A stretch of DNA of 64,000 nucleotides. Source: Bactericera cockerelli (Eukaryota; Arthropoda; Insecta; Hemiptera; Triozidae). The notes under the pieces were generated by a model. The model searched no databases. It was given only the letters and a program-made list of their open reading frames with translations, and was not told the origin of the DNA. The stretch covers positions 7,412,659 to 7,476,658 of the forward strand of contig CM044962.1 of assembly GCA_024516035.1 (NCBI GenBank). The letters are read 5' to 3'. Positions 8,301 through 48,955 of the stretch are shown one piece after another. Both the position numbers and the translations under genes were made by a program. Every line of letters starts with the position of its first letter. Within the stretch, counting starts at the first letter, position 1.

Positions 8301-11300
8301 TGTAGAACCCGCCGCGATGGTTGTGGAACCAAGGATTGTTGTTGTTGTTGTAGAAGTGGTTGCCGCCCCTGTAGTGGCCACGCCCTCCTGTGAAATAGAA
8401 ATTCTTACATTATCACCACTCTCGATCAAAAACCGACCTCAGAAGCTTGATTATTATTATTATTTAACGCTTTATTGGTCAACTACATGATACATTCAAC
8501 AAAATATAACATGAAAAAAAAGAACACAATATAATATGTAGTGAACCAAGGGGCGAGGTTAAAGCCTCTGGCTTTCTCTTCCACCGAACCTTATTGATTG
8601 ATAAGGCGGCGGACTTGTAACCTTTGGTTGAGAGGTCGGTTGTTGAGATTTGGTTGAGAGGCCAAAAATATCTATATATTTTTTTTTGAAACTTATCATC
8701 ATACCTCATTCAAATATTTATTTATTTTATTTATTTATTTACACTTTATTAGATAATAGGACATATACAATACAAATAATTACAAACGAAAATACAAAAT
8801 ACAATATATAAAAAAATAAAAAATAATAGCTAACCTCATCTTTTACATTGGTAGACAATATTTATTTTTAAACTCTAAATTAAGTTAGACAAAAATTCAA
8901 AATACTAGGTTCGAAAATTCAGTTTGATGTATTAGCTAGGCTAGTTAGGCAAACAAGCCCTATTGTAAATTGAACAAAATATTTGTTTAATACATTACTA
9001 TAAATAAATAAATAAACACTGCACCGTTATTAGAGCTCTATTTCAGGTACATAAGCGAAGAGTATTTATACATTTTTTAACTGTCAGATACTTAAACTGA
9101 TAGTCAAGTGGTTAACGCGTTAGTCTGGTAATCCAGGTAGCGTAGGGATCCATTGGTTCGAATCCCACCCAGTGCACAAATTTTTCCTCGTTCATTTGAG
9201 TTTGTGATCACATAATAATTAGACTCTAAGGGTTAGGTGGTAGAAAATGCTTTGAGCATTAACCTCGCCTGGTGGTTACCTTCCACTAAAGAGTATTATT
9301 ATTGTTATTAAAATAAATAAATAATTAAATCGAAAACTAACCAGACCGTCGCGTCAAGCAAGGACTTACCTCGCCAATGTCCAGGTGGGTACTAGGACTT
9401 ACCTCGCCAATGTCCAGCTGGGTACTAGTACTAGGACTTACCTCGCCAATGTCCAGGTGGGTACTAGGACTTACCTCGCCAATGTCCAGGTGGGTACTAG
9501 GACTTACCTCGCCAATGTCCAGCTGGGTACTAGTACTAGGACTTACCTCGCCAATGTCCAGGTGGGTACTAGGACTTACCTCGCCAATGTCCAGGTGGGT
9601 ACTAGTACTAGGACTTACCTCGCCAATGTCCAGGTGGGTACTAGTACTAGGACTTACCTCGCCAATGTCCAGGTGGGTACTAGTACTAGGACTTACCTCG
9701 CCAATGTCCAGGTGGGTACTAGGACTTACCTCGCCAATGTCCAGGTGGGTACTAGGACTTACCTCGCCAATGTCCGGGTGGGTACTAGGACTAGGACTTA
9801 CCTCGCCAATGTCCAGGTGGGTACTAGGACTTACCTCGCCAATGTCCGGGTGGGTACTAGGACTTACCTCGCCAATGTCCGGGTGGGTACTAGGACTTAC
9901 CTCGCCAATGTCCGGGTGGGTACTAGGACTAGGACTTACCTCGCCAATGTCCAGGTGGGTACTAGGACTAGGACTTACCTCGCCAATGTCCGGGTGGGTA
10001 CTAGGATTAGGGATACGAATCAAGTATCAATACTTGGCATCCGATACTACTCGATACCGGCATCGATACTTCACATTCTATACTTTTTTAGCGTTTTTTT
10101 ATTATTCAAGTCGCAAATCGCAAGAATTGCATCAACACAATTTCTTTTTCTTTCAATTTTCAAGTTTAAGTTAAGGTTCAAGTTAAAACAAGACAAGTTA
10201 GACCGATTCTATTGCTATTTAATACTATAAATCTAAGTATTCTAGTGTCTAGCCAGCGTCGATGGCATGTTGAATACACCGGTTCCCTTCAGAACACCGA
10301 AGTTAAGCGACATCCAGCGAGGTTAAGACTTGGATGGGTGACCATTTAAATTCTAATTCTCGTGACGCTAGCTTTTCCCGGCCCCACTCGGGCTGGGTGA
10401 GGTCAATGTGAGTAGCAGGTTTGTGAGTTTCCTGCGAATGGAGGGTAAAACCCCCGTCGTGATATGACCATGGCAGTTGAAAGCGACGTTAAACCCCACT
10501 TAAAAAAAAAATTCTAGTGTCTCTACCGCATCCCTAAAGCCAACCAAGTACTTTAGGTATTGGGTATTGATACCAACTGAGTACTTTTGGTATCGATACT
10601 TTTGGTCTGATACTACTCATGAGTACGATACCATTTATACGAGACTGCTCATGAGTACTGGTATCGATACTTTTCATTCGATACCACATCCCTAACAAGG
10701 ACGTACCTCGCCAATGGCCGGGTGGATACTCCATCGTGTGATCGGGCGGCGTCGGGAACTCGCTACTCTCGGCTTTCACTTCGGCAGTCTTCGGCTTGGT
10801 GCTCGACGAGCCCACGGAACTATCCGAATCAGCGTCCGAACTGTCGTCAGAGTCCAGTGCCGTCTGCTTTCCACCTGAACAAGTCCGAAAAAAAATTTAT
10901 TACGTGGCGAAAATATACAGGGTGTCCCACCAAACTTGGACACCTCAAATTACTCGGCCCCTGAAAGAGTTTTTGAAAAATAAAAAAATCTAGGGTACAT
11001 GTGCTAATTATGCGGTTTCAGTTATGAATTTTTTTTTATACAGGGTGGTTCAAAAGTCAGAAATTGAGGTGTCAACTTTCGATTTTTAAATGGATCGACC
11101 TAAATTTTATTTAATAATTTTACTTCTAAATGATTCCTGAGTACTTTTTTAAACAAAAATATTACATACAGGGTGGTTTTTTTTCGACCAATTTTTTTTT
11201 TCTAAATCTTGAATAACTCAAGTTTAGTTAATTTTTTCGATAACAAGAAGAGAATATGTTTGTGTAATGAATACACGCACTTTCAATTGGCATCAAAATT

Positions 11301-14300
11301 TTTTATACAGGGTGGTTCACAAGTGAAATAATGACTTGATTTTTTTTAAAACTGAGTTTTTTAAATTTTTTATTTAGGATTAATAATTCTCGACTAGTTT
11401 TACACATTTTTCGTTAGTCATATCGAAAAACAAAACTAAAGTGTCGTACAGGGTGAGACATAATTTTTTTGTAACACCCTGTATATGGGCAGTCAAAGAG
11501 ACGCAAAATTAAATATAAAGACTAAATATGCAAGAAAAACTTTGATTTTTAATGAAACTAAAAAGTTATGGTGTTTTAACTAATATTGTCGCATGGACCA
11601 CCCTGTAGATATTTTCTTAAACCATCATATGGGTAGTCGAAACTGTCTAAAATTCAACGAGAAGTCCAAATCTGAAAGAAAAAAAATGAATTCAAAAAGC
11701 CATGCTCAATTTTGTGTCTACACCTACCTACTTTTTATTTCAAGTTTTAAAATCATTCAGTGTGGACACCAAATTGAAAATGGCTTCAAATTCGTGTTTT
11801 TAACTTGTTTTTCCCACATGATTCGAAGTGTTCGTTGAATTTTATACAACTTAGAGTACCTACATGATATTTTAAGAAAATATCTACAGGGTGGTCCATG
11901 CGACAATCTTCTTTTACTCTGTCCTATCCCGCTCAAGCAGGGTCGACGTTGTTCAACCTCATGGTTGAGGTTGATTTGGTTTTGGCACATTTTTTTACGG
12001 CTGGATGCCCTTCCTAACGCCAACGATTCTATTTGATTTAACGTCCTGGATTAGGACGGGGGTTTTACCCTCCATTCGCTGGGAATCGTACCAGCTACCC
12101 ACATTAACCTCACCCAGCCTGGGTAGGGCCGGAAATGGCAGCCTCACGTGTTTGGATGGAACAGAATTTTCTTCGAAAAGTCTGCCCCAGCCGTGAGTTG
12201 AACTCGGGAACTCTGGACTACGGGCAGTAGTCACAACCATTACGCCACGGAGGCTGCGTCCATGCGACAATATTAGTTAAAAAACCATAACTTTTTAGTT
12301 TAATTAAAAATCAAAATTTTTCTTGCATATTTAGTCTTTATATTTAATTTAGCGTCTCTTTGACTGCCTATATACAGGGTGTTACAAAAAAATTATGTCT
12401 CACCCTGTACAACACTTTAGTTTTGTTTTTCGATATGACTAACGAAAAATGTGTAAAATTAGACGAGAATTATCAATCCTAAATAAAAAATTAAAAAAAC
12501 TCAGTTTTAAAAAAAATCAAGTCATTATTTCACTTGTGAACCACCCTATATAATTTTTTTTTGATGCCAATTGAAAGTGCGTGTATTCATTACACAAACA
12601 TATTCTATTCTTGTTATCGAAAAAATTAACCGAACTTGAGTTATTCAACATTTAGAAAAAAAATTGGTCGAAAAAAAACCACCCTGTATGTAATAATTTT
12701 GTTTAAAAAAGTACTCAGGAATCATTTAGAAGTAAAATTATCAAATAAAATTCAGGTCGATCCATTTAAAAATCGAAAGTTGTCACCTCAATTTCTGACT
12801 TTTGAACCACCCTGTATAAAAAAAAAATTTATAACTGAAACCGCATAATTAGCGCATGTACCCTAGATTTTTTTATTTTTCAAAAACTCTTTCAGGGGTC
12901 GAGTAATTTGAGGTGTCCAAGTTTGGTGGGACACCCTGTATTATTTTATGAGAAATAAAATTAAAAATGAAACAAAATTCGGAGATTATCTATTACGTGG
13001 CGAAAAAAAAATCGAAAATATAATATTATTTTATGAGAAAAAAAAATACATTAAGAAACAAAAATCGGAGATTATCTATTACGTGGCGAAAAAAAAACGA
13101 AAATATTATTTTATGAAAGAAAGAAAAAATCAAAAATGAAACAAAAATCGGAGATTATCTATTACGTGGCGAAAAAAAAATCGGAAATATAATATTATTT
13201 TATGAGAGAAAAAAAAATCAAAAATGAAACAATAAATCGGAGATTTATTAATTTTACAAAACAAAATACGATAACATTTTACACTATGCATTGGTAGTCT
13301 ATTTATAAAATGATTTTTTCGGGTCAAATATTTTATTATAATTAAAAAAACACTGCCAATTATGGACACAATACTTCCTCGTGATTGTTTCACATTGTAA
13401 ACACGTGCCAATTTTGAGATTTTATACAAAATTACTTGTATCTCCAAAACTAGTGAACCGATTTTCTTCAAATTTGTTTTATATGGTAAAATATTGTTTT
13501 TTCTACATTCTAGATTCTACAAAAAATTCTGTATCGGCAAGTCGTGGTCCTTATTTTTTTACTTTTTTGTCCAAAATTTCGGATTTTCTTAAATATCATA
13601 GTCAAATTATAATTAATTAAATAATAAATATTAATTACCTATGTAAAACAATAATATGCATATTCTTACAAAATTTCATCAAAATCGGGTGTACCGTTCA
13701 CGAGATATAAGCGTTTAAGTAAAAAGTTAGTGGTCAGGCGCATGGTCTCTTTCACCCAGAACCGCTAGTACGAATTCGATGAATTTAAAATGGGACCATC
13801 TAGAGAATGTCTCCTAGATGTGTGCAAAATTTCATCAAAATCGGTTGAGTGGTTTCCGAGATTTGCGCGTTACAAGGAATCGTTTTAACAGACAGACAGA
13901 CAGACAGACCGACAGACCGACAGACGGACACAAAACCAAATTTACTCAGTAGGTTATGAAACGTCCAGAAATATGAAAAAAATTGAAATCGGAGCAAAAA
14001 AATATTTTTTTTTACAAAAACGAACACAATACTTCCGATTTCTAATATTAGAAATTTCTCGGAAGTAATTAAAATGATTATTATGAACTGCGCAATGTTT
14101 ACGAGTGTTTCACACCAAGACAAAACCTACCCAGTTTGAGATCACCTTTCTTCTTGAATCGTTTGATCAGCTTATTCCTGAATGAGATCTCTTTGAGTCT
14201 TTTTATGTCTTCGAGTTTGTCTTTTTTCTGGAAAAGGAAAATAAGAAATAACATTTATATTTATTTAGGATACTTTCTGTTGAGACTGACTGTTATGTCT

Positions 14301-17300
14301 TGGTTTGCGACTTGGAGTGTATTGAATCAGACTGGGACATAAAAATAAAAGACCTCATAAAAGAACTATTCTAGTGGCATTAGATTTGTCTAAAGCATTT
14401 GACACTGTGAACCTAAACACCCTTCTTGGGGACATCCTAGAGACCACAATTCCTTGGCAAATCAAACGTTGGCTCCAAAACTATCTAAATGGACGACAAA
14501 CTTTTGTAGAGTTTAGAAATACAAAATCAAAATATAGGAAACTTAAACAAGGAGTACCGCAAGGAGGTGTCCTTTCCCCCCTCCTTTTCAACCTTTATCT
14601 GAGTAAGATTCCACCTCCACCACCCGAGATATCACTAATTAGCTATGCGGATGATTGCACCATTCTTGCGTCCGGAAACAATCTCCCTGAACTCTGCAGT
14701 ACTATCAACATCTATCTTGACACTCTTCATCAGTGGTTTCAACAACGCCACCTTCAATTTTCATCTGAGAAGTCCAGTACTACTCTCTTTACATCCTGGA
14801 CACTGGAGCTCAATCAAGACCTTGACATTAACATCAATGGACAACGCATCCCAACCATCAAAACCCCCAAAATTCTTGGCGTGACCTTTGACCAACTTTT
14901 AACATTCAACTCCCATGTGACTAAAACTGTTAATAAACTCAAGAACAGAAACAACATGTTGAAGGCCCTGGCAGGCACAAGTTGGGGTAAAGAAAAAGAA
15001 ACCATGCTAATAGCATTCAAAGCCATCAGTCGTCCCCTAGTCAACTATGCTGCCCCAATATGGTCACCTATCATCAGTGACACACAATGGAAGAGAATTC
15101 AAGTCTGTCAGAATGCTGCTATCCGGATCTCAATAGGTTGTCTCCTGATGTCTAATATTGACCATTTACATACTGAAAGTCAAATCTTACCTGTCAAAAC
15201 TCACACCTTGATGTTAGCGGAACAATACCTTTTATCTAGCCACCTACCAAATCACCCTAATTTCAATCTAGTCAATAAACCGTTACCAAAAAGATGTATA
15301 CGTCAATCCCTCCAGTTCCTAAAACCCAACATAGAAATGTACCTACCATCAACCACCATTGATCCTGATCACTACAAAATATGTCTTCAAGAAATACACA
15401 CTAGAACTGTAGAAGATGCAATAGCCCAATACAAACCTAATCAAGTTCTAGGCTGTCCACCTCCACCTATTGCACCAGAAGAAAAGGATCTTCCAAGAAG
15501 CACCCGAAGTAAACTAGCACAACTTCGCTCCGGCTGGTCTAGGATGCTCAATATTTACCTCAACAGATTAGACCCTAACGTGAAAAATGAATGTAGTCTA
15601 TGCCATTCAGAACCCCATGATGTCCATCATTTATTTAGCTGCTCTCAGAATCCAACGACACTCACAACAATAGACCTGTGGAATAACCCCAAAAATGTTG
15701 CAGCTTTCCTCCAACTTGACGTCGATTGATCTGCTCTTGTCCGCCGCTACAACAACAACAACAACATAAAAAGAGTCATCATCATAATAGAGTGGCGTCA
15801 TCGTGAACGATAGTAGCCAGACAGTGGAGGAATGACTCAGAAATTCTACCACTGTGTTTACAAGGAGGCTAATAATTGACAAGGGCCCCCAGAACCAAGC
15901 CAATGCTGGCCTACTCCCTGTTTATAGTTTAACTTTTTTATTTATTTATAAAAAATAATGTGTAAAACATTTTTTTTTATACACAAAACAATCAACAATA
16001 AATTATTAACAGAGAAAAAGAACTTAACAATTTTTACAAAATAAAATAAAGAAAAAAATATTGAACTTTAAATTTACAGTTGTCTTGTAATCCAGGGCAA
16101 AGTTAATGCCTTAGGCATTCTCTGCCACTTAACCAAGCTAGCCTGGCTTGTTAGGTTGGTCTAGTACATTTTCTGTGTTTAGAGTCCTCTAGCGAGACAC
16201 TGGTGTTCTCAATGTTTAACGTCCCACAGCCAGACAGGTGCTTTGTGGATCATAGGAGACTGATAACAAAATCATCATCATAGGGTGGCGTCATCGTGGA
16301 CAATGGTAGCCAGACAGTGGAGGAATGACTCAGCACTTCTACCACTGTCTTTACAAGGAGGCTACTAATTGACAAGGGCCCCCAGAACCAAGCCAATGCT
16401 GGTCTGCTTCCTGTTTATAGTCCCCCAGCCAGACTGCTGGTCTACTCCCTGTTTATAGTCCCCCAGCCAGACTGCTGGTCTACTCCCTGTTTATAGTCCC
16501 CCAGCCAGACTGCTGGTCTACTCCCTGTTTATAGTCCCCCAGCCAGACTGCTGGTCTTCTCCCTGTTTATAGTCCCCCAGCCAGACTGCTGGTCTACTCC
16601 CTGTTTATAGTCCCCCAGCCAGACTGATAACAAAATCAGAAAGAATACCTTCAGTTCAATGCCCTTGAGTTTCATTTTCGCGAGTCGCTTTTCCCGCTTT
16701 AACTCCAACTCTTTGCTGTCCTGGAACACGAAATGAGAGAAAATAAATTATTCCAACAGACCCACAAAAATTCTCGGTTCCCCAAGTTATTATTATTATT
16801 AAAAACTTTATTAGCTATAAAAAGACGGGTTTCCCCAGCTAAGACAGTACGCAATCCAAGACTTAGCCCCACAAAGGTATTACAAAAATGCCTATTTAAT
16901 TTTTTGTAACACCTCTGTGAAGCTAAGTAAGTCTAGATTTTGCGTATTGTTTGAAATGGGAAAACAAATGCTCAAGTCATGACCAAGTTTTCGAGGCTTC
17001 ATGGCTACGAAATAAAGAAGGCTGTGAAACATCTTTTTTTTTTTAAGTCCGACCATAGCGTGTAGAATCAAGAAGTGTGGAAACGAACCCCAGTTGCATG
17101 GACACGCCACATAGCGCAAAGAAGTTTATGTTTATATTTACATTTGATATATTTATGTTTACATTTGATACGGGTGAGGGACGAGGAGAGGAGACTCCTT
17201 TGCGATACTAGCGCTGAGGACGCCACGATGTAGGCCGGCGGGGGGTGGTTTCCACACTTCTTAATTCTACACGCTATGGTCTGATTATGAACAAGGGCCA

Positions 17301-20196
17301 AAGAGTCTCACCTTGATTTTATCAAACACATAGCTGAGAAGTCGAATGGTCTGCAGTTTGCGCTGAGCCACCAGATACAGATACTCCTCGCACGCTATCT
17401 TCTTGTTCATGTTCTTCGCCTCCTTCTTGTTGAGCTTGAGCAGTTTCTTCTCCTTCCGTTTCTCCTCTCTCTCGCGTTGTCGCTCCAACTTGGACTCCTG
17501 GAGAAATGGTCAAGTGGTTAAAGGGTTGGGTGGAAGAGATTGCCACAGGCAATAACCCCGCCCTTTATAGGTAGGACATTTCTCTCTTTTTTTCCTTCTT
17601 GTATATTTGTTTAATCTTTTTGTTTTTCTTTATATTTCATTGTGTTCTACTGTATATAATTTTTGTTCTACCTAATAAAGCTTAAAAAAAAAAAAAAAAA
17701 ATGTTGTTAATGTTGTAGCCAGCTTGGCTACAGCTGGAAGGGGGGAGTGATGGTCTCCAGCCAACTTTATTTCAAAATTGGCTCGTCCTGAACCACATAT
17801 TTCTATGTGCGATCAACCATCATGAGGACTTGAACTTTTCTTTATAAGCCATTAAACCCTCAGGAAACTGCAAGCTACCCTGGCTTGTAAGGGTGGGCTA
17901 GTCTGTTCTCTGTTTATAGTCCTCTAGCGAGACACTGGTCTTCTCCCCCTGTTTAACGTCCCCCAGCCAGACTATCAAGTGGTTAACGCGCGTCTGGTAA
18001 TCCAGGTAGCGTAGGAATTCGTTGGTTCGAATCCCACCCAGTGCATGATTTTTTCCTCATTCATTTGAGTTTGTGACCACATAATAACAAGACTCTGAGG
18101 GTTAGGTGGTAGAAAATGCTTTGAGCATTAACCTCGCCTGGTGGTTACCTTCCACTAAAGAGTATTATTATTATATTTAGGCCAGCGTTGACGAACAAGG
18201 ATTTTTTTCGACCTAGGAGAAATAAGTGAATGGAGACATCATATCGTATATCTCATGGGTAATATTATTCCCCACCTTCAGCACAAGATTTTTATCTTTT
18301 GAAGGTGGGTATACACTCATTATTTGTTGATGAAGTTTATTTGTTAAAAGATAAATACATGGAAATTTTTAAAAAAAAATATATAGAAAAAAATCTGTCA
18401 CATGACAATTATATTTCCATTTGAGATTTTTACCACATAATAATACGTCTTATGCTTACTGCTGCAATAATCAGATTTAATAGTCTTAATCGGGCAGTAT
18501 AAATAAGGAGATATTATTGTACAGGGGGACTATAAACAGGGAGTAGACCAGCATTGGCTTGGTTCTGGGGGCCCTTGTCAATTATTAGCCTCCTTGTAAA
18601 GACAGTGGTAGAAGTGCCAAGTCAAGTTGACTATTGTATATAACTATAAAGTTGAAAAACGCCACTTTAACATAAAAAAAAGATAGATGGATAATAATAA
18701 AAGTTAAAGTTATCATATTTGTGTTAATCACTTTCGTGATATCACAACTACTCAAAGTCACTTTACTAAAACTAAATCCATGCTGAAACCAGGACTTGAA
18801 CCACTCACCTCCAGGTTACAAGTCTGTTGCCTTATCGATAGATATTACTAATAATAATATCGCCTTATTTATATTGCCCGATAAGGACTTTTAAAGTCCC
18901 ATTATTCCAGCAGTAAGCCCAAGACATATTAAAATGTGGTAAAAATCCCAAATGGGAGGATAACTTATCATGTCCCGGCTGGGTTTCGAACCCACGACTT
19001 CTGGAATCTCTGGATTCACAGAGCACGTCTCTGCATACCAGCCGAAACCTCGCTTTCAACTACATGGTCTCATTTGATCTTCAAGAGTGGAGTATGAAAC
19101 GTTGCTTTTCCTTTTTTTGGGGCAGTGGGGTGGGGATTTAACGTTGCTTTGACCCACTGAGCTACCGGGACAGACGATAGATAGATAATACTACGCCACG
19201 GATCTTTTACTTTACCTTCTCTTTCCGCTTCACCTCCTCCTCCTCCCTCTTCCGCCTCTCCTCCTCCGCCGCCTCCGCCAGTTTCTTCTCCTCCTTCTCT
19301 TTCTCCTTGGCCACTAACTTCTCCCTCTCAATGGCGCGCTTCCTAATCGTGCTCTCGCTCAGGTGTTTGGTCTTGTCAAAGTCCACCTGAGGCAGAAATG
19401 AATTACAGGTCACTTGAAATTACATACATGGTTGGGTGGAAGAGATTGCCATAGGCAATAACCCCCCCGCCCTCTAGTTAGGACATATGTTTTTATATAT
19501 TTTTTATTGTATATATTGTTTCCATTTTTTTCATTGCTAAAATAATTATTTGCATAGTACATATGTCCATTTATATCTAATAAAGTGTTGAATAATAATA
19601 CATCCCAGGTCGAACCCAGGTCACCGTGCGTGCAATGCCTAGCGTAGCGTAATTAATACTATCACAAAACAAGGTGCCTGGTTCCCCAGGTACCTTAGTG
19701 TGATAGTATAAGTGCATACTCATACTTACTTTATTTGATTCATTTTAAGTACTTATATATTTATTATACTATTGTTATTCAAAATATTGTAATGAAATGA
19801 TGTACAAAAATAAAGCAAAAATCATGTTAAAAAAAAAAAAAAAACAATAAAATAAATAATCTGGTGTGATACCACGACTTTCCTTATACCCCGAAAATAA
19901 GTCGAATTCCGCCACTGGTGACTCGACGGTAACTGGTGACCACCACAACCTACCTTGACTTTTACCCTTTCCAAAACAATTTTTTTTCAATATTTTTTAC
20001 ATGCATTTTTTATTCCTAAAATGTAAAATAATAAAATAAAATTTTATGGCTGTATGGAATGGCCTTGCCAACCAATGACAAAAAAAAAAAAAAAAAAAAA
20101 AAAAAAAACACCCTACCTTGGAAAAAAAAAAAAAAAACCCTACCTTGAAAAAAAAACCCTACCTTGAAAAAAAAAAAAAAAAAACACCCTACCTTG

Positions 20197-20229
<33 letters not shown>

Positions 20230-23015
20230 ACCCTACCTTGAAAAAAAACACTACCTTGAAAAAAAAAAAAAAAAACACCCTACCTTCAAAAAAAAACCCT
20301 ACCTTGAAAAAAAAAACCCTACCTTGATGTTGGCGCAGTACGCCTTGTCGCCGTCCACATGCAGCAGCTTCATGCCGCGCAGCGCGTCCATCGCCTTGAC
20401 GAAGTGCACGTACTCCCGGAACTGCACGAACGCCTCGAACAGCACCGGCCTGGCGGGCCGCGCGTGCGAGAGGAGGCTCATGCCGGAGATGTAGGCCTTC
20501 ATCTGGGGGCGGTACGGATCGTTGATCGGGATGTCGATCTCACGAATGTCGCCGTAGTTTTGGAACACGCGCCGCAACATCTGACGAGGGAAAAACATTT
20601 TTTCCGTTGGCATTAACACCGCCCTTGATCAAGTTTTGTTTTATTTCAATTTCTATTTAAATATTCTATGCACCTACTTTATTGTAAATAAAACTTGATC
20701 GTTTAATAATAATAATAATATTTTTTTTTAAAGATGAATGTTTATTTGTTTAACAGTCATTTTTTATTTCGTAGCCAACTGCAGCTACTGTAGATTAGAA
20801 GTTTTATTATTATAAAACCTGGTTGCAGGGTTTCAGCTGAAACACCATACAACTAACACTGCGACCTAGTAAGATCTATTGTGACCAGGGTATTAGATTA
20901 GAAGCTTAATAATAATAATATCGCCTTATTTATACTGTCCGATTAAGACTATTAAAGTCCCATTATTCCAGCAGTAAGCTCAAGACTTATTATTAAGTGG
21001 TAAAAATCCCAAATGGGAGGATAACTTGTCATGTCCTGGCTGGGTTTCGAACCCACGACCTCTGGAAACTCTGGATTCACAGAGTGCCGCCATTACCACT
21101 GAGCTACCAGGACAGACAGGGAAAAATATTTTTTTTAAAGATTTTTTATTTACACTTTATTTTTTTATACAAGACAAACAACAATAACTTATTAACAGAG
21201 ATAATAAAAAAATTAACAATATTTACAAAATAAGGTATAACAAAAAAAAAAAATATATAAATTTAAATGTGCAATTGTCTTATAATCCGGGGCAAAGTTA
21301 ATGCCTTAGGCATTCTCTGCCACTTAACCCCGGTACATTGTCTTATTATTGTCTTGTAAATAAATAAATATTAAAAAAAAACACTTAAAGATTAATGTTT
21401 AACAGCCATTTTTTATTTCGTAGCCAACTGCAGCTGTAGATTAGAAGCTTGTGGTCCGTGTTGTAGCTTGCCCACCCTGTAGTATGCCTCCCCTCTGATG
21501 GGCGGGAAGTGACACAATACTTCCTATTTAGGTGTTTGGTCGAGCGGTTTTCTCGCTCGTCCAAATAAATAAACAATCAGCCATACGAAAAATCAATCAC
21601 ACACACAAACACTGAGACAAGACATTACAATAGAGAAATACAAGTATCAATGGTCCAGAACCCAACACAATTCCTTGGCTCGCAAGGAAAGCCCCTACTT
21701 TCAAGGGTGTCATTTGGGTCATCATCATATAATAAATAAATAAATAATGTCTGGCTGGGGGACGTTAAACAGGGAGAAGACCAGTGTCTCGCTAGAGGAC
21801 TATAAACAGAGAACAGACTAGCCAACCCTTACAAGCCAGGCTAGTTTGCAGTTTCCTAAAAGTTCAATGGCTTGTACAGAAAAGTCCAAGTCCTCATGTT
21901 GGTTGATTGCACATAGACATATGTGGTTCAGGACGAGCCAACATTGAAATAAAGTTGGCTGGAGACCATCACTCACCCCTCCAGCTGTAGCCAAGCTGGA
22001 TACAACAACAACATAAATAAATAAAAATCGTGGTCTCTCATTTCTTTGCTTGGTTGATTCGTTTTGGACCTGGGTGCAGAACCACTTTGACACGTAAAGA
22101 CTCATTTCCCCACAGTTTATCTCAATCACATTTCTATAAAAATCTTCTTTTTTTTTTATTTTTTTTTTATTTTTAAAGAAAAAAATTGTTCTATGGTTGG
22201 TCACTCACCGCTTCGCTCGGTTGATGCGGTTTGGCCGGGGTGCAGAACCACTTGACCGGTAGGTTGGACAGGTAGATGGTGTCTGGCCGCTCGCCCGCCT
22301 TCATCTCGTTCATGTTCTTGGCGTCGCGGAAGTACGAGTCCCAGTCGTGCCGCGTGGGGAAGTCTGGCTTGGCCTCGCCGGCGCGAACCTTGAGCCCGTC
22401 CGCGTACCCTGGGGGAAGAACGGAGAAAATGAGAACAGAGTTTTCTTCTATTGGTTCTTATTCCTCAGAAGTTAGACTTAGCTTATAGGAGATGTATTGA
22501 TTATAATATTATTCTTGTACAAATAAATAAAAGTATTCAATTCAATTCAATGTATTTTATTCTGAAGTATGAAATACTACGTTGGGAAGTGTTTGGTCTT
22601 TGGTTTGGCGTACGTGAAATAGCTTCCCCATTCCTTTTTTTTTTTTAATATTCAAACTTTATTTCAGTTTTATTTAAAACTTTTATAAATTGGGGAAATA
22701 AGGTACATAGGATAGGAAAAGAAATACAGATAAATGGGGTACAAGGAAAAAATATGACAATTACAAGAAAAGGAAAAGAATACAAACAAATACAAGGAAT
22801 ACAATAATGATCAGGATAAGTAGGAGGAAAGAAAAAAAAAAAAAAATAATAATAATAATGAAATACAATAAAAAAACAAATAATAATAATAATAATAATT
22901 AAAAGAAAGAAAAAAAATCAACAAAAATCATGAGCACACTTGGCTATATTGGCTTAGTGTAAAATATTTATAATTAAATAAATATTAAAAATAAGCCCAC
23001 AAAGACTAGAAATGT

Positions 23016-23046
<31 letters not shown>

Positions 23047-24563: not shown

Positions 24564-24599
24564 CCTGGTGGATCACTGAGAGTTACCGCTGGGTCACAC

Positions 24600-27480: not shown

Positions 27481-27505
27481 TACACACTGCCTGAGTGAAA
27501 GGTGA

Positions 27506-28735: not shown

Positions 28736-28775
28736 CGAGCCTGCTCTTCTCTCTCTCTCTCTCTCCTTCGGGTTC
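28736..28775. repeat. (TC)n microsatellite
   Basis: A run of about ten TC repeats follows CTGCTCTTC. No gene is nearby. Confidence 0.8.
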
Positions 28776-29227
28776 TTGTATAGGAGGGTTAGAGAATAAA
28801 CCGAAAAGTTTAGACGTCATAGATAGAAGGAAACAGACTTAGAAAGAGTAAAGGAGGTGAGAAGAGGTACCATTTTTAGATTTTCGCTTAAATTTCACAC
28901 CCTGGGGGCTTACAATAAATATTCTATATCTAGTAATTCTGTGAACTGTACACCTCACACAGATTTAACTATCGCTTTATAAATTTTCAAGCAAGTTTTA
29001 TAAATGAGGACATCGAGACCTTTCATTCACTCGATAGTTTTTAATTAAAAAATATCAACCGGACTCTTTTTGGTCCTTTTTTGATGCGGCCCCAAAAAAC
29101 TTGTATAGTGAATTTCAACGATTTTGAAGAATCTGATCGAGAGTTATTGCGGAACAGACAGAGAGACAAACAAAAATACAGACATACATACAAACAAAAG
29201 AATGCCAAATTTTCCAGTACCCAAGTT

Positions 29228-29279
29228 AAAACAGAACACAGTGAGGGAGCGAAGCGACCTCACTGTGTTCTGTTTTAGC
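29228..29279. repeat. Perfect hairpin, about 23-bp arms
   Basis: TAAAACAGAACACAGTGAGG is followed by a short loop (GAGCGAAGCG) and its exact inverse. It sits next to a CAGACAGAGAGACAAAC tract, like the (GACA)n element at 13344. Confidence 0.85.
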
Positions 29280-29620
29280 GTGTTTGGTTAACAGAAAAAA
29301 TTGTTTCCTTAGGTCTCTTTTAAGTCAGTTAAATGAGATTTAATTTTGAAACAAAACGTCGCGCAACAAAATGTTGCACTTAGTGGGATCCGGGATCCCG
29401 GCTTTACGTTTGATAAAACTCGACCAATACGAACGCGGTTATTGATGAAATGGATCGTGATCGTTTATCGTTTGACGAGCTGATGTAACGAGGCGATTTC
29501 TTATCACTTCTCAAAGCGCAATATTTCAAATTTCAATTATGTAAAAAAAAAAATTACGATAAAGACAAAGCCATTATTTGTATAATAAAATAACACTCAT
29601 TTTTTCTAGCAGAAAAGAAA

Positions 29621-31381: not shown

Positions 31382-31439
31382 TTATGGGAAAACCAAACCC
31401 TGCTTTTGTAAATACACTGTATTTTGATTTTAAATAAAT

Positions 31440-33760: not shown

Positions 33761-33767
33761 ATCTTCC

Positions 33768-33927
33768 CCGGGATGCCACTGAGTGCAATATAGTGTCTCG
33801 AATTTTAAAAAGGAAGTGTTGCGCAGTCAGCGGGGTTTGATCTCATTTGATTCCATAAAAGAAGAGAGGAAGCATGCAGCGTTGCGCAACGGTGCGAGAC
33901 AAAATATTGCACTCAGAGGGATCGCGG
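33768..33927. mobile_element. MITE with CCGGGATGCCACTGAGTGCA ends
   Basis: The two ends are imperfect inverted repeats of about 30 bp (GAGTGCAATA...CGAG on one side, CTCGxACAAAATATTGCACTC inverse on the other). End-like pieces occur at 2905-2950, 29365-29400 and 49220-49265. Confidence 0.65.
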
Positions 33928-33944
33928 AATAAGTCTAAACTCTA

Positions 33945-34125
33945 AACATGTTACGCCGATCTCAGTGGTTAAGAGCATTAGCAGACCTGCAGGTTGCGGG
34001 TTCGAATACCGTCCTGAGCGGAAAATTCTGCCCGAGTTTTTCCGTTTCCGGAATGGCAACGGATGTAAAGATAGAATGCCCCGAAGAAATGCAAAAGCGG
34101 TTCCGGGACACGAATACTTTTTAGA
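33945..34125 (+). repeat. tRNA-headed SINE, 'ggaatggcaacggatgtaaag' family
   Basis: It has head GATCTCAGTGGTTAAGAGCA with GGGTTCGAATACC. The body AAAATTCTGCC, GAGTTTTTCCGTTTCCGG and AAGCGGTTCCGGGACAC is shared with 63660-63815. Confidence 0.7.
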
Positions 34126-34305
34126 AGAAAAAAAAAACAATCTGTTCAAAGCTGTGTTCACTTAACTAGATTCAATTAATCATATTAGGTTTTAAACACG
34201 TCCTGAATTATTCACCAGAACGGGAATTAATCCATCCACTTGCTGGGATTTCGGACACCGGTACCAAAAACCGTCCTCACGTGTTCGCTTCAGGGACAAC
34301 TAAAA

Positions 34306-34870
34306 CAAAAAATGTTAGAAAGTTGTGTGCGAGTTCAACCTTACGATGGAGCCAAGATAAATTTCTCGATCGCCAGAACTGTCCGTTTCTTCAATCCAGT
34401 GCGAGCATTCAACCTTACGATGGAGCCAAGATAAATTTCTCGATCGCCAGAACTGTCCGTTTCTTCAATCCAGTGCGAGCGTTCAATCTTACGATGGAGC
34501 CAAGATAAATTTCTCGATCGCCAGAACTGTCCGTTTCTTCAATCCAGTGCGAGCGTTCAACCTTACGATGGAGCCAAGATAAATTTCTCGATCGCCAGAA
34601 CTGTCCGTTTTTTCAATCCAGTGCGAGCGTTCAACCTTACGACGATGGAGCCAAGATAAATTTCTCGATCGCCAGAACTGTCCGTTTCTTCAATCCAGTG
34701 CGAGCATTCAACCTTACGATGGAGCCAAGATAAATTTCTCGATCGCCAGAACTGTCCGTTTCTTCAATACGATGGAGCCAAGATAAATTTCTCGATTGCC
34801 AGAACTGTCCGTCTCTTCAATACGATGGAGCCAAGATAAATTTCTCGATCGCCAGAACTGTCCGTTTCTT
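34306..34870 (-). repeat. Array of 74/53-bp units abutting the ZNF143-like terminal exon (8 copies)
   Basis: The unit contains GGACAGTTCTGGCGATCGAG, AAATTTATCTTGGCTCC and ATCGTAAGG on the minus strand. Proximal units are shorter (53 bp). The first unit merges with the last codons and stop of the ZNF143-like gene. ATC/GTAAGG in each full unit could act as a donor. Confidence 0.9.
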
Positions 34871-34977
34871 CAATCCAGTGCGAGCTCCATGAGGAAGTAC
34901 TTCTCTACACCGACGCCGCCACTACCGGTGTTTGGCGCCATGACGTTGGCACCGCTTCGAGGTGGTTGAGTGGCGTT
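34870..34977 (-). CDS. ZNF143: ZNF143-like exon 9 (terminal)
   Basis: The acceptor is TTGCTTCCAG. It encodes [20 protein letters not shown] and ends [10 protein letters not shown] before TGA at 34872-34870. The stop codon falls in the first unit of the 74/53-bp array, so the true end of the protein may differ. Confidence 0.65.
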   Translation of the reverse strand, partial: NATQPPRSGANVMAPNTGSGGVGVEKYFLMELALD

Positions 34978-35842
34978 CTGGAAGCAAAACGACAAGTTAA
35001 CACATTGCGTGTCAAGAGGTAAAAGCACGACATTATACCCAATCGGGGCGACGATGTCAGGTATTTTCGCCTGAAGTGGATCATTTACGTCAGACGAAAA
35101 CGCCTGACGTGGCACGGAATTTGTTAAGCATTTCATTTACTTTTCATGAAATATTTTTCCTTGACTTTTTTTTCTTTATTATCAATATTATCATCATCAT
35201 AGGGTGGTGTCATCGTGAACGATGGTAGCCAGACAGTGGAGGAATGACTCAGCACTTCTACCACTGTCTTTATAAGGAGGCTAATAATTGACAAGGGCCC
35301 CCAGAACCAAGCCAATGCTGGGCTACTCCTTGTTTATAGTCCCCCAGAACCAAGCCAATGCTGGTCTACTCCCTGTTTATAGTCCCCCAGAACCAAGCCA
35401 ATGCTGGGCTACTCCCTGTTTATAGTCTCCCAGAACCAAGCCAATGCTGGTCTACTCCCTGTTTATAGTCCCCCAGCCAGACTATTTATTATTATTATTT
35501 TTAAATAATAAATCATTTGTTTTATTTTTCATATTTTTTTATGTATACAGAGGACCCATCCTAAGCAATTTTTAGTTGGCTTCTAAGATTTAATTGACTG
35601 AGATTAAATTTCCTGACTACTGATCGTGGGAACTCTGCAAAGGTAGTCACCGTGGTTCGATCTCCAGCCGGTTAGGAATTTTTCTGCCCTGTACTTGGAT
35701 ATTCAGGGTCCACTCATACCTCGTGAATTGGACCTGGAAATTGTTGTCTTATATCCAGGTTCTCATGTAAAGGCGGTTATTTCACCCTATAAAGGGTAAA
35801 TTGGACCTGGAAATTGTTCTCTTACATCCAAAATTGACTGAA

Positions 35843-35873
<31 letters not shown>

Positions 35874-35915
35874 AACCCCCACTCACCCGTATGGTGGTAA
35901 CTTTCTTCCTGGCGT

Positions 35916-35947
<32 letters not shown>

Positions 35948-38900
35948 CTTTAGGTTATTTTACCCTATAAAAACGTGAATTGGACCTGGAAATTGTTCTC
36001 ATATATCCAAAATTGACTGAATTCCTGAAAAAAAAAAAAAAAAAAATACCACTCACCCGTATGGTGGTAACTTTCTTCCTGGCGTCCTGCTGGTGCATGG
36101 ACTTGCGGTGACTGTTGAGTGTGCACACCTGCCGGTAGGAGCGCGGACACTCGTCGCAGATGAACGGGCGAATGTCCGAGTGCACATGCGTGTGTTTGTA
36201 CAGGGAGGAGTACTCGGTGAACCGCTTGGAGCAGCCCTGGCGAGACAAAGTCAAGGCATAGCGTGTAGAATTAAAGTCGTATTTTTCTTTCTAACCAAAA
36301 AAAAAATTCCTGGTTAGGTTTCTTCCAAATAATTCCATGTTATTCCAAGGCCATTCGTAAAAGAAAAATGCATTTGGTTACTTTTAAAGATAAACAATGG
36401 ACTTAACCTATAAAAGAATTGGAAGCAAGAATTTTCTACTTCCACTTTGGGTAACTTTGGAAGTGGAAATTTTCCTCTTCCAAAAGAAAAATGACTTGCT
36501 TCCAGTTTGGTTCACTTTGGTTAGAAAGAAAAATAGGGCTTAAGAAGTGAGGAAACGAACCCCACTTGCATGGAAACGCCACATAGCGCGCAACATCGCA
36601 AAGGAGTAGGAATATTTCTCGCGGTCTGTCTCAGTATCAGTATAAACAGAAAAGTGAGAAGTTGTATTAGATGTACATGAATATCAAAATATACCTGGAC
36701 AGCTGTTTCAAGCTTATTTGCTCTCATCAGCAGGTAATAGTTCTGAATATCCATGCCACCAACTAACCTCTCTATTCTAATCAGTATAAACAGAAAAGTG
36801 GGAAGTTGTATTAGATGTCTCGGTATGAACTGTTTGTGTTTGATACGGGGGAAGAAATTTTGTGAGGGACGAAGAGAGGAGACTCCTTTGCGATACTAGC
36901 GCTAAGGACGCCACGATGCAGGCCGGCGGGGGTTGGTTTCCACACTTCTTATTTCTAGACGCTATGGTCAAGGTATTATTAGTGAGTTTGTGCTAATTAA
37001 ATTAACGTTATGCTGATTGAACTTTTCACGTTTTTTGACGAAATAGTTTTACGAAAAAAAAAAAAAAAAATAGGGTGACGCTAATTTTCAAAAGTCGTTT
37101 CTGCACATGCGCTCAACGAGTTTTCGCCTAGAAGTTTGTGCTCGTTCGTTTTGAAAACATGGGTTGATTTTTTCTTATCATATTTGTGTTAATTGCTTTT
37201 GTGATATCACAATTACCTACACTAGCTTTACTAAATTTCTGCTTTACGTGGGACTCAAAACACCGACCTCCAGAAAGCCAAAGTATTATTATCTGACCTG
37301 GTTGTAGAGTTTTCAGTGAAACACTTGCAACTAACACGGCGACCTAATTAGATTGTTGTAAGGTTTGTAATTCAAGGTAACTTTATGGAAACTTCATAAT
37401 TCGTTAATTCTATAATAATGACTTACCAAGACGTGACACACATATGGTCCGAGACCTAACACACATATGGTTTCTCTACTCACCAAGACCTGACACACAT
37501 ATGGTTTCTCTACTCACCGAGACGTGACACACATATGGTTTCTCTACTCACCAAGACCTAACACACATATGGTTTCTCTACTCACCCGAGACGTGACACA
37601 CATACGGTTTCTCTACTCACCAAGACCTAACACACATATGGTTTCTCTACTCACCGAGACGTGACACACATATGGTTTATCTACTCACCAAGACCTAACA
37701 CACATATGGTTTCTCTACTCACCGAGACGTGACACACATATGGTTTCTCTACTCATCAAGACCTAACACACATATCGACCATGGAATGAGAAAGGGGCGT
37801 AAGTAACAAAAATGGATTTTCATTTTATTCCATACAACAACTTGTTCAAGTGGGTTCTTTGGTTCAAATACCAGCGAAAGAACTTTTTTTCGAATCAGAT
37901 AGAGTATGGAAGGAGTCAAAATACAGCAAAATTATAAAAGGCAGGAACAAAAATAATTTTTTTTTTCTTTTTGCTCTCCTGAAAAAATTGAAAATATCAC
38001 TTACGCCCCTTTCTCATTTCATGGTCGATATGGTTTCTCTACTCACCGAGACGTGACACACATACGGTTTCTCTACTCACCAAGACCTAACACACATATG
38101 GTTTCTCTACTCACCGAGACCTAACACACATATCGACCTAACAAAAAAAAAAATTCAAATTTTTCAGGAGAGCAAAAAGAAAAAAACAATTTCTTTTTGT
38201 TCCTGCCTTTTATAATTTTGCTGTATTTTGACTCCTTCCATTTTTTTTTTTTTTTTACTTACGCCCTTTTCACATTCCATGGTCGATATGGTTTCTCTAC
38301 TCACCGAGACGTGACACACATATGGTTTCTCGCCCGAGTGGATGCGCATGTGATTCTTGTAGTTGGTGGCCGAGGCGAACGATTTGTCACACCCCGGTTG
38401 ATCGCACACGTACGGCTTCTCACCGGTGTGTGTGCGGATGTGAACCTTGCGAATGTTGGAGGTGGTGAAGGACCGGTTGCAGCCCAGCATCGGACACGGG
38501 AACGGTCGCTCGCCTGAGAATAATAATGTTTTTGTTTTTTTTTTTTTTAATAGAAGCAACTACACCAACATGTCACAAAAGATCTATGTAAGGTCGCAGT
38601 GACAAAGAGCTTTCGTAGCCGATAGCCCTACTTTACCAATACCAACTACACCAACACAGATATAAAGTCAACGGCTAGATGCCCGTCTTAACGCCAACGA
38701 TTCTATTTGATTTAACGTCCTGGATTAAGACGAGGGTTTTACCCTCCATTCGCTGGGAGTCGTACCAGCTACCCACATTAACCTCACCCAGCCTGGGTAG
38801 GGCCGGAAATGCCAGCCTCACATGTACGGGGGGGAACAGAATTTCTGTGTGAAAAATCTGCTCCGACCGGGGATCGAACTCAAGGTCTCTGGACTACGGG

Positions 38901-41900
38901 CAGTAGTCACAACCAATACGCCATGGAGGCTGATGGTTTGCCTATAACTAATAAATATGGTAATATAATAATGAATAAAAAGGAGGGGGAGGGGGATTAT
39001 AAATATTTCTGAACACATCTCACCGGGGTTAAGTGACATTCTCTGCCAATTAACCGCGATCAAAAAAGGGAAAAATATAATTAGAGATTAAAACTATTCT
39101 TCCTTTTTTTTTTTTTTTTTTTTTTGCATACACATAATATTTTATTAAACATAAAAAACATTATTCAGGACATCATCATTTGGATGACAACCCAAAACGC
39201 TTGCAGCATTGCCTCGTTGAACTGCAAGGCTTATCTATTGCAGCAAATAATTTCCCGATCTTGGGTCTCCAGTCTTTTTTACAATGGACCTTTTCAATTC
39301 TTCTAGTCAGTGTTTAGCTTCTTTACAAATCGGCCCCATTGTTTCAATTGCAAACCCTTTCAAAAGTGTAATTCTGAATAGTTTTAAGAGATTAAAACTA
39401 GTTGACCAATTTAATCATAGCTCATGTCAGAGTTCACATAAGGTAAAAAATGTCCGCACGCAACCCACCTGTATGTGTCCGCACTCAACCCAGCTGTATG
39501 TGTTCTCACTCAACCCACCTGTATGTGTCCGCACTCAACCCACCTGTATGTGTTCTCACTCAACCCACCTGTATGTGTTCTCACTCAACCCACCTGTATG
39601 TGTTCTCACTCAACCCACCTGTATGTGTTCTCACTCAACCCACCTGTATGTGTTCTCACTCAACCCACCTGTATGTGTTCCCACTCAACCCACCTGTATG
39701 TGTTCTCACTCAACCCACCTGTATGTGTTCTCACTCAATCCACCTGTATGTGTTCCCACTCAACCCACCTGTATGTGTTCTCACTCAACCCACCTGTATG
39801 TGTTCCCACTCAACCCACCTGTATGTGTTCGCACTCAACCCACCTGTATGTGTTCTCACTCAACCCACCTGTATGTGTTCTCACTCAACCCACCTGTATG
39901 TGTTCTCACTCAACCCACCTGTATGTGTTCTCACTCAACCCACCTGTATGTGTTCGCACGCAACCCAACTGTATGTGTTCAAATTCAAATCAAATATTTA
40001 TTGTGATATTTATACATAAACATTTTACATAATTTACAATAATATTTTTACCTACATAAAAAAACCCTAACATTAGTTACACCTGTCTAACTTAATATCT
40101 AGCTTTCTACTTATTCAGAACTGGGGAAGTTAATAATGATAGGATAAATAGTTATACATTGATTTGTTCTAGCAAAGTTATAAAGGATGCAAGTGAAATA
40201 GTAAGGTCTATATTGTTCTGATAGTCGTTGTACAGTTGCATTGCTCTGTTGATGGGAGATAATTCTGAGTGAGAAGTTAGAGGTACTTTGAAAGTTTTAA
40301 ATTGAGAATTTCTTGTTCTTTCAGATCTCGAGTTGAAAAAAAGATTGTTGTAAAGAAAGGGAATGTCAATTTGTTTATTGTAAATTTTAAAAAGAAAAAC
40401 TAGAAAGCTTCTTATGTGACGACTTCTGTTCGCACGCAACCCACCTGTATGTGTTCGCACGTGCTTCTGCAGGTCCCCCGACGTCTTGAACGCCTTCGTG
40501 CAGCGCTCGTACGAGCACCGGTACGGTTTCTCGCCCGTGTGGGTGCGGATGTGCGCCTTGCGACTGTACTGGGTGGCGAAGGCCTTGCCGCAGTACAGGA
40601 CCGGACACTTGTAGGGCCGCATCCCGGAGTGGATGCGGAGATGAACCTGAGAGGGAGAAAAAAAAGCGTTTCCTAAGTGTCAAGTGGCAGAGAATGCCTA
40701 AGGCATTAACTTCGCCCCGGATTCTGTTTATACTGATTAAAATAGAGAGGTTAGTACATCTAGTACAACTTCTCACTTTTCTGTTTATACTGATACTGAT
40801 TACAAAACAATTGTTATCAAAAATTCATATTAATCTTTATTTCTTTTTGTACATTCTTCTAAGTTTTTTTTTTTTAATTTATTGTTACTTTTTTTTGATG
40901 ATTGTTGCTACTTTTGTGTTATTGTTACTTTTGTTGATGATTGTTTTGTAAAAAAAATAAAGTGTAAATAAATAAATAAAAATAAATTTCTTTGTAACAA
41001 TTATATATTCATAATAATATAATAATAATTCCGTGTCCGTGAGATAGGTATTGATACTTAAATCACGGTGGTGAGAGGATTATATGGACACTTGTAGGGC
41101 CGCATCCCGGAGTGAATGCGGAGGTGAACCTGAGAGAGAAAAAAAAGCGTTTCTTTGTAACAATTATATATTCATAATAATAATTCCGTGTCCGTGAGAT
41201 AGGTATTGATACTTAAATCACGGTGGTGAGAGGATTATATGGACACTTGTAGGGCCGCATCCCGGAGTGGATGCGGAGGTGAACCTGAGAGGGAGAAAAA
41301 AAAGCGTTTCCTAAGTGTCAAGTGGCAGAGAATGCCTAAGGCATTAACTTCGCCCCGGATTCTGTTTATACTGATTAAAATAGAGAGGTTAGTACATCTA
41401 GTACAACTTCTCACTTTTCTGTTTATACTGATACTGATTACAAAACAATTGTTATCAAAAATTCATATTAATCTTTATTTCTTTTTGTACATTCTTCTAA
41501 GTTTTTTTTTTTTTTTTAATTTATTGTTACTTTTTTTTGATGATTGTTGCTACTTTTGTTTTATTGTTACTTTTGTTGATGATTGTTTTGTAAAAAAAAT
41601 AAAGTGTAAATAAATAAATAAAAATAAATTTCTTTGTAACAATTATATATTCATAATAATATAATAATAATTCCGTGTCCGTGAGATAGGTATTGATACT
41701 TAAATCACGGTGGTGAGAGGATTATATGGACACTTGTAGGGCCGCATCCCGGAGTGAATGCGCAGGTGAACCTGAGAGAGAAAACAAAAGCGTTTCTTTG
41801 TAACAATTATATATTCATAATAATAATTCCGTGTCCGTGAGATAGGTATTGATACTTAAATCACGGTGGTGAGAGGATTATATGGACACTTGTAGGGCCG

Positions 41901-43845
41901 CATGCCCGAGTGAATGCGGAAGTGAACCTGAGAGAGAAAACAAAAGCGTTTCTTTGTAACAATTATATATTCATAATAATAATTCCGTGTCCGTGAGATA
42001 GGTATTGATACTTAAATCACGGTGGTGAGAGGATTATATGGACACTTGTAGGGCCGCATGCCCGAGTGAATGCGGAAGTGAACCTGAGAGAGAAAACAAA
42101 AGCGTTTCTTAAGTGTTAAGTGGCAGAGAATGCCTAAGGCATTAACTTCGCCCCGGATTACAAAACAATTGTTATTAAAAATTCATATTAATCTTTATTT
42201 CTTTTTGTACATTCTTGTAAGTTTTTTTTATTTTAATTTATTGTTACTTTTTTTGTTGTGTTGATGATTGTTTTGTAAAAAAAATTAAGTGTAAATAAAT
42301 AAATAAAAATAAATTTCTTTGTAACAATTATATATTCATAATAATATAATAATTTCGTGTCCGTGAGATAGGTATTGATACCTAAATCACGGTGGTGAGA
42401 GAATTATATGGACGCCCAGACCCAATGTCTAGGCTCCTTTCATGTCCATTGATTCTATTTGGTTTTAAACGTCCTGACTTGACGTAGACAGGACGGGGGT
42501 TTTACCCTCCATTCGCTGGGAATCGTACCAGCTACCCACATTAACCTCACCCAGCCTGGGTAGGGCCGGAATCGCCAGCCTCACAGGTTCGGAGGGAACA
42601 GAATTTTCTCTGCGAAAAGTCTGCTCCAACCGGGAATCGAACTCAGGATCTCTGGACTACAGGCAGTAGTCACAACCGTTACGTCACGGATTCATAATAT
42701 CAAACTAGGATTCATTGTCACAAGATTAAAAGCTTGACTTGTCTATATCATAGACTGTGAAAGATTTAGAGAGCAGTCTAACACTAGTTTCGTCCTTATT
42801 TGGACTCATCAGTTAGACTCATCTCGTTAGGGAAACAAGGGAATAAATTCAACTTGTTTAACATCCAATACGTAACAATTATATATTCATAATATGAGAC
42901 CAGCATTTATTGTCACAAGAATTTATTCTCCCGCGTTTCTTTTTATTTTTAATATAAAAATAAAATCTTTGTGATATCATATCACAATTCTTGTAATGGC
43001 ATGTCAATTACTAGCATAAAGTCTGTATTTTTCACGTTTGCACTAGCTTTGCTTATTTGCCTTTGAGCAAAGTCAGTAAAGAAGTGGAAACATCAGACTT
43101 CAATTAACTTGCTTCTGGGGGCCCTTGTTAATTATTAGCCTCCTTGTATAAACTTGATGAAAATATAAAATTTGGAGACCATCGAATACGATGATGATAC
43201 TCCATGATGATGGCTATTAGTTTTAAAGAAATTTCGGAACATTAAATAAACAAAAGTTTCACTAAATTAAAACAAAACACTGATATTGTTGTAACCAGTT
43301 TAGCTACAGCTGGGAGGAGTAATGGTCTCCAGAAAACTTTAAAAAAAAATGAGTGTTTCACAGCTTTTTTTATTTCGTAGCAATGAAACAGGAGCTACTT
43401 TAGACGCTTGTGGTCTGTGTTGTAGCCTGCCCATCTGATGGGCGAGAAGTGACACAATACATACACAGTAAAACTTATTATTATAAATAGTCAAACTATA
43501 CGATGAAAAAATATAAAACCATTTTTCAATTATATATTGATAATATTTATGTATTGTTACATATTGGATGTCAAACAAGTTGTATTTATTAAAACTATTT
43601 TTTTTAAATACCTTCATATGATGCGGAGAAGAGAAGCACTTGTTACACTCCCGACACACATTATTCTTCTTGTGACTCGCGCTCCCCGGCTTCACACCTC
43701 CAGGCTTCACATCCACCACATCCAAATCATTCACATCCACATCCAGCTCGAAAATCATGTCCTCCTCCCTGTCCACTTCCTCGTCATCCATCTCCACAAT
43801 GATGAATCTGAGCAGGTTTGAAACAAATAAATAAATCACAAGAGG

Positions 43846-48948: not shown

Positions 48949-48955
48949 TTAATAC

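Follow-up and report, generated by a model that had tools for sequence, protein, structure and literature searches.

Minisatellites that repeat coding-exon ends in a 64-kb stretch of the psyllid Bactericera cockerelli genome

Tandem repeats that copy the ends of coding exons are found in three genes of Bactericera cockerelli, AKAP17A, ZNF143 and a third that we take to be UBAP1, for which a Pfam search gave no match. The genes lie in a stretch of 64,000 nucleotides (the window; C8:7412659-7476658 of an assembly of 565 Mb in 1032 contigs). The 25 exons modelled in all have 50 coding-exon ends (22 donors, 23 acceptors, 3 stops and 2 starts). Local tandem copies on the same strand are present at nine of these ends: six donors, one acceptor and two stop codons. 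The original prediction described copied splice sites in two unrelated genes, and the six items it named (four donor arrays, a 170-bp duplication and an acceptor array) are all present at or near where it placed them. Three further cases were identified (34333-34869, 62998-63079 and 22031-22087). Splice sites are indeed copied at seven edges, but the copying is not splice-specific, as two of the nine edges are stop codons and 3' ends dominate. Likewise AKAP17A and ZNF143 are both affected, but UBAP1 makes three genes and further genes are affected elsewhere.

The AKAP17A model has 11 exons on the minus strand and is short of at least one exon because the phase breaks before 10874. A fragment of the protein is 86% identical to that of Diaphorina citri over 66% of the query and 82% identical to that of Cacopsylla melanoneura over 81%, and the Pfam domain RBD_AKAP-17A was found on two of the exons (20323..20580 and 22209..22408). 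ZNF143 is modelled as nine exons, also on the minus strand, in a single unbroken frame from M to stop; its zinc-finger part is 84% identical to both D. citri and Cyamophila willieti. The UBAP1 model has at least five exons on the plus strand. The copied ends and their exons, as identified with Tandem Repeats Finder (TRF), alignment and the gene models, are as follows.

9361..10006, minus strand: donor-edge array, 18 copies of 33/39-bp units, end of exon 10707-10874 plus donor (TRF, alignment)
10012..10695, unstranded: insert separating array and exon, with inverted TTAGGGAT-like ends (read from the sequence; unclassified)
10707..10874, minus strand: AKAP17A coding exon, donor edge copied (acceptor TTCAG, donor GAG/GTACGT)
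20094..20327, minus strand: donor-edge array, 8 copies, TCAAG/GTAGGG plus T tract, adjoining the exon (TRF, alignment)
20323..20580, minus strand: AKAP17A exon of the RNA-binding domain, donor edge copied (PF25015, E=3e-19; K/V junction as in psyllid relatives)
22031..22087, minus strand: old single donor-edge copy, 82% identical, GT mutated (alignment, E=3e-10)
22209..22408, minus strand: AKAP17A exon, source of the old copy at 22031..22087 (PF25015, E=1e-22)
34333..34869, minus strand: stop-codon-edge array, 74- and 53-bp units (TRF, 24/24 match)
34870..34977, minus strand: last ZNF143 coding exon (EKYFLMEL common to psyllid relatives P0249 and P0252)
35720..36056, minus strand: 170-bp donor-edge duplication, A-tract filler at the junction (alignment; lacking from the second locus copy)
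36057..36236, minus strand: ZNF143 zinc-finger exon, donor CGG/GTGAGT (gene model)
37419..38304, minus strand: donor-edge array, 14 copies of 34-bp units, two inserts (TRF, alignment)
38305..38513, minus strand: ZNF143 zinc-finger exon, donor edge copied (gene model)
39451..39980, minus strand: donor-edge array, 21 copies of 25-bp units (TRF, alignment)
40445..40646, minus strand: ZNF143 zinc-finger exon, copied at donor and acceptor edges (gene model)
41019..42110, minus strand: acceptor-edge array, five extra copies, periods of 642 and 155 bp (TRF, alignment)
62772..63008, plus strand: last coding exon of the putative UBAP1 (gene model)
62998..63079, plus strand: stop-codon-edge array, 27 bp x 3, last codons plus TGA and 3' flank (TRF, alignment)

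In AKAP17A, the 18 copies of array 9361..10006 match 27-29 of 32 exon-edge bases, and the unit of array 20094-20327 consists of about 19 bp and a variable A/T tract. In ZNF143, the 74-bp units of array 34333..34869 contain the last codons of the gene, the TGA and the 3' flank. This array was first read as transposon-derived, since the neighbouring plus strand resembles RNase H. That reading was rejected because psyllid ZNF143 relatives carry the same C-terminal EKYFLMEL (tblastn by itself gives a weak match, E = 0.22). At 34870-34900 the C-terminus reads ELALD-stop and that of the psyllid relatives runs on as ELSIP.. or ELTIP..; the coding tail seems altered where the array starts. Within the duplication 35720..36056, the segment 35863-35918 copies 36033-36088. 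At the junction the sense strand has some 30 consecutive A, which resemble a retroposed tail.

The array 37419..38304 is broken by two inserts (~37776-38027 and 38134-38285) that are related to each other. They occupy the identical place of the 34-bp unit, which suggests that array growth carried one of them along. The 25-bp array has, by eye, 10 near-identical bases at its two ends and is separated from exon 40445..40646 by an insert of about 450 bp (39981-40427). The arrays had been proposed to adjoin their exons before later insertions; this fits the sequence, and inserts between exon and array occur only at 9361 and 39457. The unit of the acceptor array includes the polypyrimidine tract, CAG, about 47 exon bases and a tail resembling a short interspersed element (SINE), which is probably present also in locus L025. 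Six further ZNF143 exons were searched for copies of their ends and only the stop end was positive. Downstream of the UBAP1 array, 63096-63140 is an 80% copy of exon bases 62899-62943.

The units of the edge arrays measure 33/39, ~19, 34, 25, 155/642, 170, 74/53 and 27 bp. For all seven edge arrays detected by TRF, the best match among the 50 coding ends is the adjoining end (17-24 of 24 bases), and 120 random probes from non-coding sequence scored no higher than 15-17 on the same arrays. The claim that the units are unrelated and do not represent one transposon holds: five of the seven arrays have no match among 32 loci totalling 256 kb, the second ZNF143 copy described below being excluded. 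Array 20094 matches many of these loci, probably via the A/T tract (alignments not inspected), and array 41661 matches L025, by position probably through the SINE-like tail. In contrast, the repeats at 16397 and 35298 each match seven of the 32 loci. The edge arrays therefore lack the hallmark of a transposable-element array, a unit common to unrelated loci.

TRF (score >=100, period >=15) identified 20 clusters in the window, four inside coding sequence and 16 outside, the latter merging to 14 arrays. Seven of the 14 span a coding-exon end, where 0.66 would be expected if units of the same length and matched G+C were placed at random (P = 7e-7). Among arrays with at least three copies the figure is seven of ten (0.53 expected, P = 5e-8), and with the number of ends doubled the placement test gives P = 7e-5. 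The test is post hoc, and the window had been selected for showing the pattern. When positions are counted instead, no excess is seen: at least two local copies were found at 5/38 of the ends then modelled (13%) and at 9.0% of 2461 control positions, and at least one copy at 6/38 (16%) and 16.3%, the controls falling mostly within the same arrays.

The copied ends are polar. Copies are present at 8/25 of the 3' ends of coding exons vs 1/25 of the 5' ends (Fisher p = 0.023), and at 6/22 donors vs 1/23 acceptors (p = 0.047). A bias to coding-exon 3' ends in this window is thus supported. Copied edges are also richer in G+C (0.50 vs 0.43, p = 0.02). Hairpins were rejected as a cause, folding z being alike at copied and other edges (p = 0.86). 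Short direct repeats were rejected as a general seed because the ends of the UBAP1 array share 0 bp.

The arrays inside coding sequence provide a comparison.

5087..5292, minus strand: array with a 21-bp unit, in frame, in the RS-like tail of AKAP17A (TRF)
6079..6141, minus strand: array with a 21-bp unit, in frame (TRF)
60268..60395, plus strand: duplication with a 63-bp unit, in frame (TRF)

All three units (21, 21 and 63 bp) are multiples of 3 and so preserve the reading frame, which the edge units need not do. The fourth such array, at 4872-5004 with a period of 24, was set aside as low-complexity.

Outside the window, 17 stretches of 10 kb (170 kb) were chosen regardless of arrays, 12 at round-number positions on three chromosomes and five at random positions. 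Donor-edge arrays were found at a coronin exon (L022; Pfam DUF1899, E = 4e-34; PDB coronin-1B, E = 3e-27), at a Ran-binding exon of RanBP2/Nup358 type (L029; Pfam Ran_BP1, E = 2e-18) and at a glutamine-rich exon with no Pfam match (L023). The L029 intron also has an acceptor-edge duplication, spanning 146 bp, at its opposite end. Another donor-edge array lies about 10 kb to the left of the window (L011/L009), at an exon without a Pfam match. The phenomenon is therefore not local to the window.

Enrichment at exon edges outside the window is not established. In an annotation-free comparison of strong GT sites (score >=10) in the 17 stretches, at least two local copies were found at 2/27 sites with upstream coding potential vs 4/129 without (Fisher p = 0.28); a looser cut-off (score >=4) gave 4/38 sites with upstream coding (p = 0.08). 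Roughly 7-11% of putative donors outside the window have local copies (2/27 with at least two, 3/27 with at least one). Arrays in the 170 kb were also scored for a donor motif in their units. After the recurrent 38-bp family, low-complexity units and arrays with too few controls were dropped, 40 remained, and 13 carried the motif vs 8.0 expected (z 2.1), too weak to use. Seven of the 13 flagged arrays were inspected (L020, L022:891, L023:776, L026, L029, L030 and L033:9537), with clear exons at three; L026 and L029 were each flagged in two rows that by eye form a single array. An array at L014:9200-9448 (64 bp x 3.9) has an acceptor-like end (TTTTCTGTCCCCCCCCCCAG).

These results bear on whether exon edges are preferred at all. 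Minisatellites might simply be common here and the reader's eye drawn to exons. The frequency of arrays in the outside sample, the clear exons at fewer than half of those inspected, the lack of a position-wise excess in the window and of significant enrichment outside it are all as this would have it. The independent arrays of the window, half of them at edges with fewer than one expected, argue against it, and we regard it as unlikely, though deserving of weight. The excess at exon edges thus stands for the arrays of the window, but enrichment was not significant in the 17 outside stretches.

A second copy of the ZNF143 locus was found at C8:7352659-7384080 (L035, L034, L015 and L013:1-1422), beside a 100-N gap. 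Its longest block covers exon and intron sequence over 6.8 kb at 98.9% identity to the window; other blocks are 93.0 to 98.9% identical, with a cut-off at 93%. This copy carries an extra stretch of about 6.6 kb. Two CCT-type chaperonin genes are doubled in the assembly as well, each pair on one chromosome (C1:46332789-46345999 vs 46699106-46707551 and C3:37251706-37259628 vs 37510024-37527305). Because of this doubling an uncollapsed haplotype seems the likelier origin. Given the lower identity of some blocks, a duplication is also conceivable, and the second copy may be a paralogue.

Four edges are expanded in both locus copies and differ in length. By TRF the 25-bp donor array has 271 copies (6.7 kb) in the second locus copy vs 21.0 in the window, a difference in copy number of about 13-fold. 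The 34-bp donor array has 34.6 copies there by TRF, and an exact count of the donor motif gives 35 vs 11 in the window. The stop-edge array consists of 77 bp x 6.7 and 53 bp x 5.0 in the second copy and of 74 bp x 5.9 and 53 bp x 3.0 in the window. At the acceptor edge the second copy has one extra copy, with a 642-bp period; the window has five, including 155-bp derivatives. The acceptor array has thus passed through at least two steps. In the 25-bp arrays the exon-proximal and distal end units are common to both locus copies and the interiors differ, so this array grows internally. The 170-bp donor duplication is absent from the second copy. The edge arrays are hypervariable minisatellites.

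We consider it probable that the arrays are boundary-spanning minisatellites of the type known as mirages, that is, ordinary duplications across exon ends, filtered by tolerance and amplified by turnover. First, a short tandem duplication of the ordinary sort would by chance extend across a coding-exon end. It would persist only if the true signal stayed in use, which fits the counts. A copied donor or stop sits downstream of the real one, which would still be met first. Where an acceptor or start is copied, the copy would come first and should rarely survive; acceptor copies would do so only as long units with the whole intron end. Duplications wholly within an exon would survive only in frame. 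The array would then grow, shrink and rearrange as a minisatellite, the step displayed by the two locus copies. The exon, as a master copy kept from decay by selection, may be a partial source of the edge excess.

Several points weigh against this reading. The filter alone leaves unexplained why half of the window's arrays lie at edges when the G+C-matched expectation is below one. The ends of the UBAP1 array are without homology, which speaks against short direct repeats as a general cause. The copies of array 9361 (GAG/GTAAGT) are, by eye, nearer the donor consensus than the true donor (GAG/GTACGT), and use of the exon-proximal donors is deduced from open frames and the proteins of relatives. 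The absence of the 170-bp duplication from the second copy could reflect a loss there instead of a gain in the window.

A general process that seeds repeats at exon-intron borders had been proposed for these arrays. The arrays of the window do show an excess of exon edges, and the phenomenon extends beyond the locus, but a special seeding process did not emerge from the analysis. A selection filter on ordinary tandem duplications accounts for position and polarity. A splice-site-directed process, such as one driven by spliceosome-linked R-loops, reverse splicing or reverse transcription, would explain an edge excess beyond G+C-matched chance, the A-rich filler at the 35720-36056 junction that recalls a retroposed tail, and the RanBP2-like intron duplicated at both ends. 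It fits poorly with the outside GT-site comparison and with the stop-codon edges. Because two of the nine copied ends are stop codons without a splice site, splice sites as such are not the target, and we consider such a process improbable.

Nor do we favor a functional reading, in which selection maintains the tandem donors as decoys that adjust splicing or expression. GT is retained in 18/18, 8/8, 11/14 and 19/21 copies of the donor arrays of the window and in 224/238 copies of the 25-bp array of the second locus copy, which speaks for this reading. However, homogenisation through repeat turnover yields equal retention, and the large copy-number difference together with a duplication absent from one locus copy is hard to square with a tuned function, which makes this reading very improbable. 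An assembly or duplication artefact is scarcely credible despite the apparent uncollapsed second haplotype (the adjoining gap and the doubled CCT-type genes), as the arrays are made up of differing copies, with higher-order structure and subsequent insertions, and four edges are expanded to different lengths in both locus copies.

Tandem repeats across exon-intron boundaries are not a new kind of phenomenon. Minisatellite-like repeats of this sort are described as mirages in two reports on amphioxus, in Adh3, globins, TnC and PGBD5 (PMC3087553, PMC3902484). In both systems the exon end with its splice site is tandemly copied into the adjoining intron, donors and acceptors are affected (amphioxus units are 10-160 bp), and length varies, between haplotypes in amphioxus and between the two ZNF143 locus copies here. 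In the psyllid the units cross an exon-intron boundary at seven splice edges, the two stop-codon edges falling outside the strict definition. Both 5' and 3' splice boundaries are involved (six donors, the acceptor at 40646 and both ends of the L029 intron), and length is unstable between locus copies. The acceptor units observed are all long: 155/642 bp here, 146 bp in L029 and 150-160 bp in amphioxus BflGb6 (PMC3087553). The psyllid arrays differ from amphioxus mirages in their insect host, in the inclusion of stop-codon ends, in reaching 271 copies and in the many edges affected within 64 kb. Somatic instability (Adh3) and unchanged splicing are reported for amphioxus.

The tandem genomic duplication model of intron gain, by AG/GT duplication (PMC3443670), likewise involves tandem duplication of sequence that bears splice signals. 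In that model an exon-internal AGGT is duplicated and a new intron made, whereas the psyllid arrays copy existing boundaries. Ordinary hypervariable minisatellites, or variable number tandem repeats, resemble the psyllid arrays in unit size, variant mosaics and length differences between locus copies; the psyllid arrays are unlike them in their placement at coding-exon ends. No report of arrays of this kind outside amphioxus was present among the matches listed from the open-licence literature, which is not proof of absence. In the available part of a genome-wide study of Daphnia tandem repeats the words 'splice' and 'exon-intron' do not occur (PMC3152781). The psyllid arrays are a known kind, mirages, in a new group, and the stop-codon edges and strong length change extend it.

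The window also contains repeats of other types. A recurrent, often tandem and transposon-like repeat of 38-43 bp (CTGGTCTACTCCCTGTTTATAGTCCCCCAGCC) is present at 16397-16626 and 35298-35476, and also in L011, L012, L014, L016, L021, L023 and L029. A 'ttaattccgccct' element with several dispersed copies, some of them inverted, occupies 48480-49400.

A broader possibility, which we put forward tentatively, is that in this insect genome coding-exon 3' ends (donors and stops) are general birthplaces of minisatellites, with the exon as an undying master copy that reseeds arrays and a first-in-line rule that picks the ends; mirages would then be widespread. If this is general, minisatellite birth would be linked with splice-site choice and possibly with intron gain. 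Each array places next to a functioning exon anything between one and hundreds of donors, most of them intact, and offers a natural experiment on spliceosomal choice among identical sites. Which ends expand would show which expression signals tolerate decoys. With the arrays of B. cockerelli, mirages are carried from amphioxus into an insect whose genome can be annotated and surveyed in populations with long reads.

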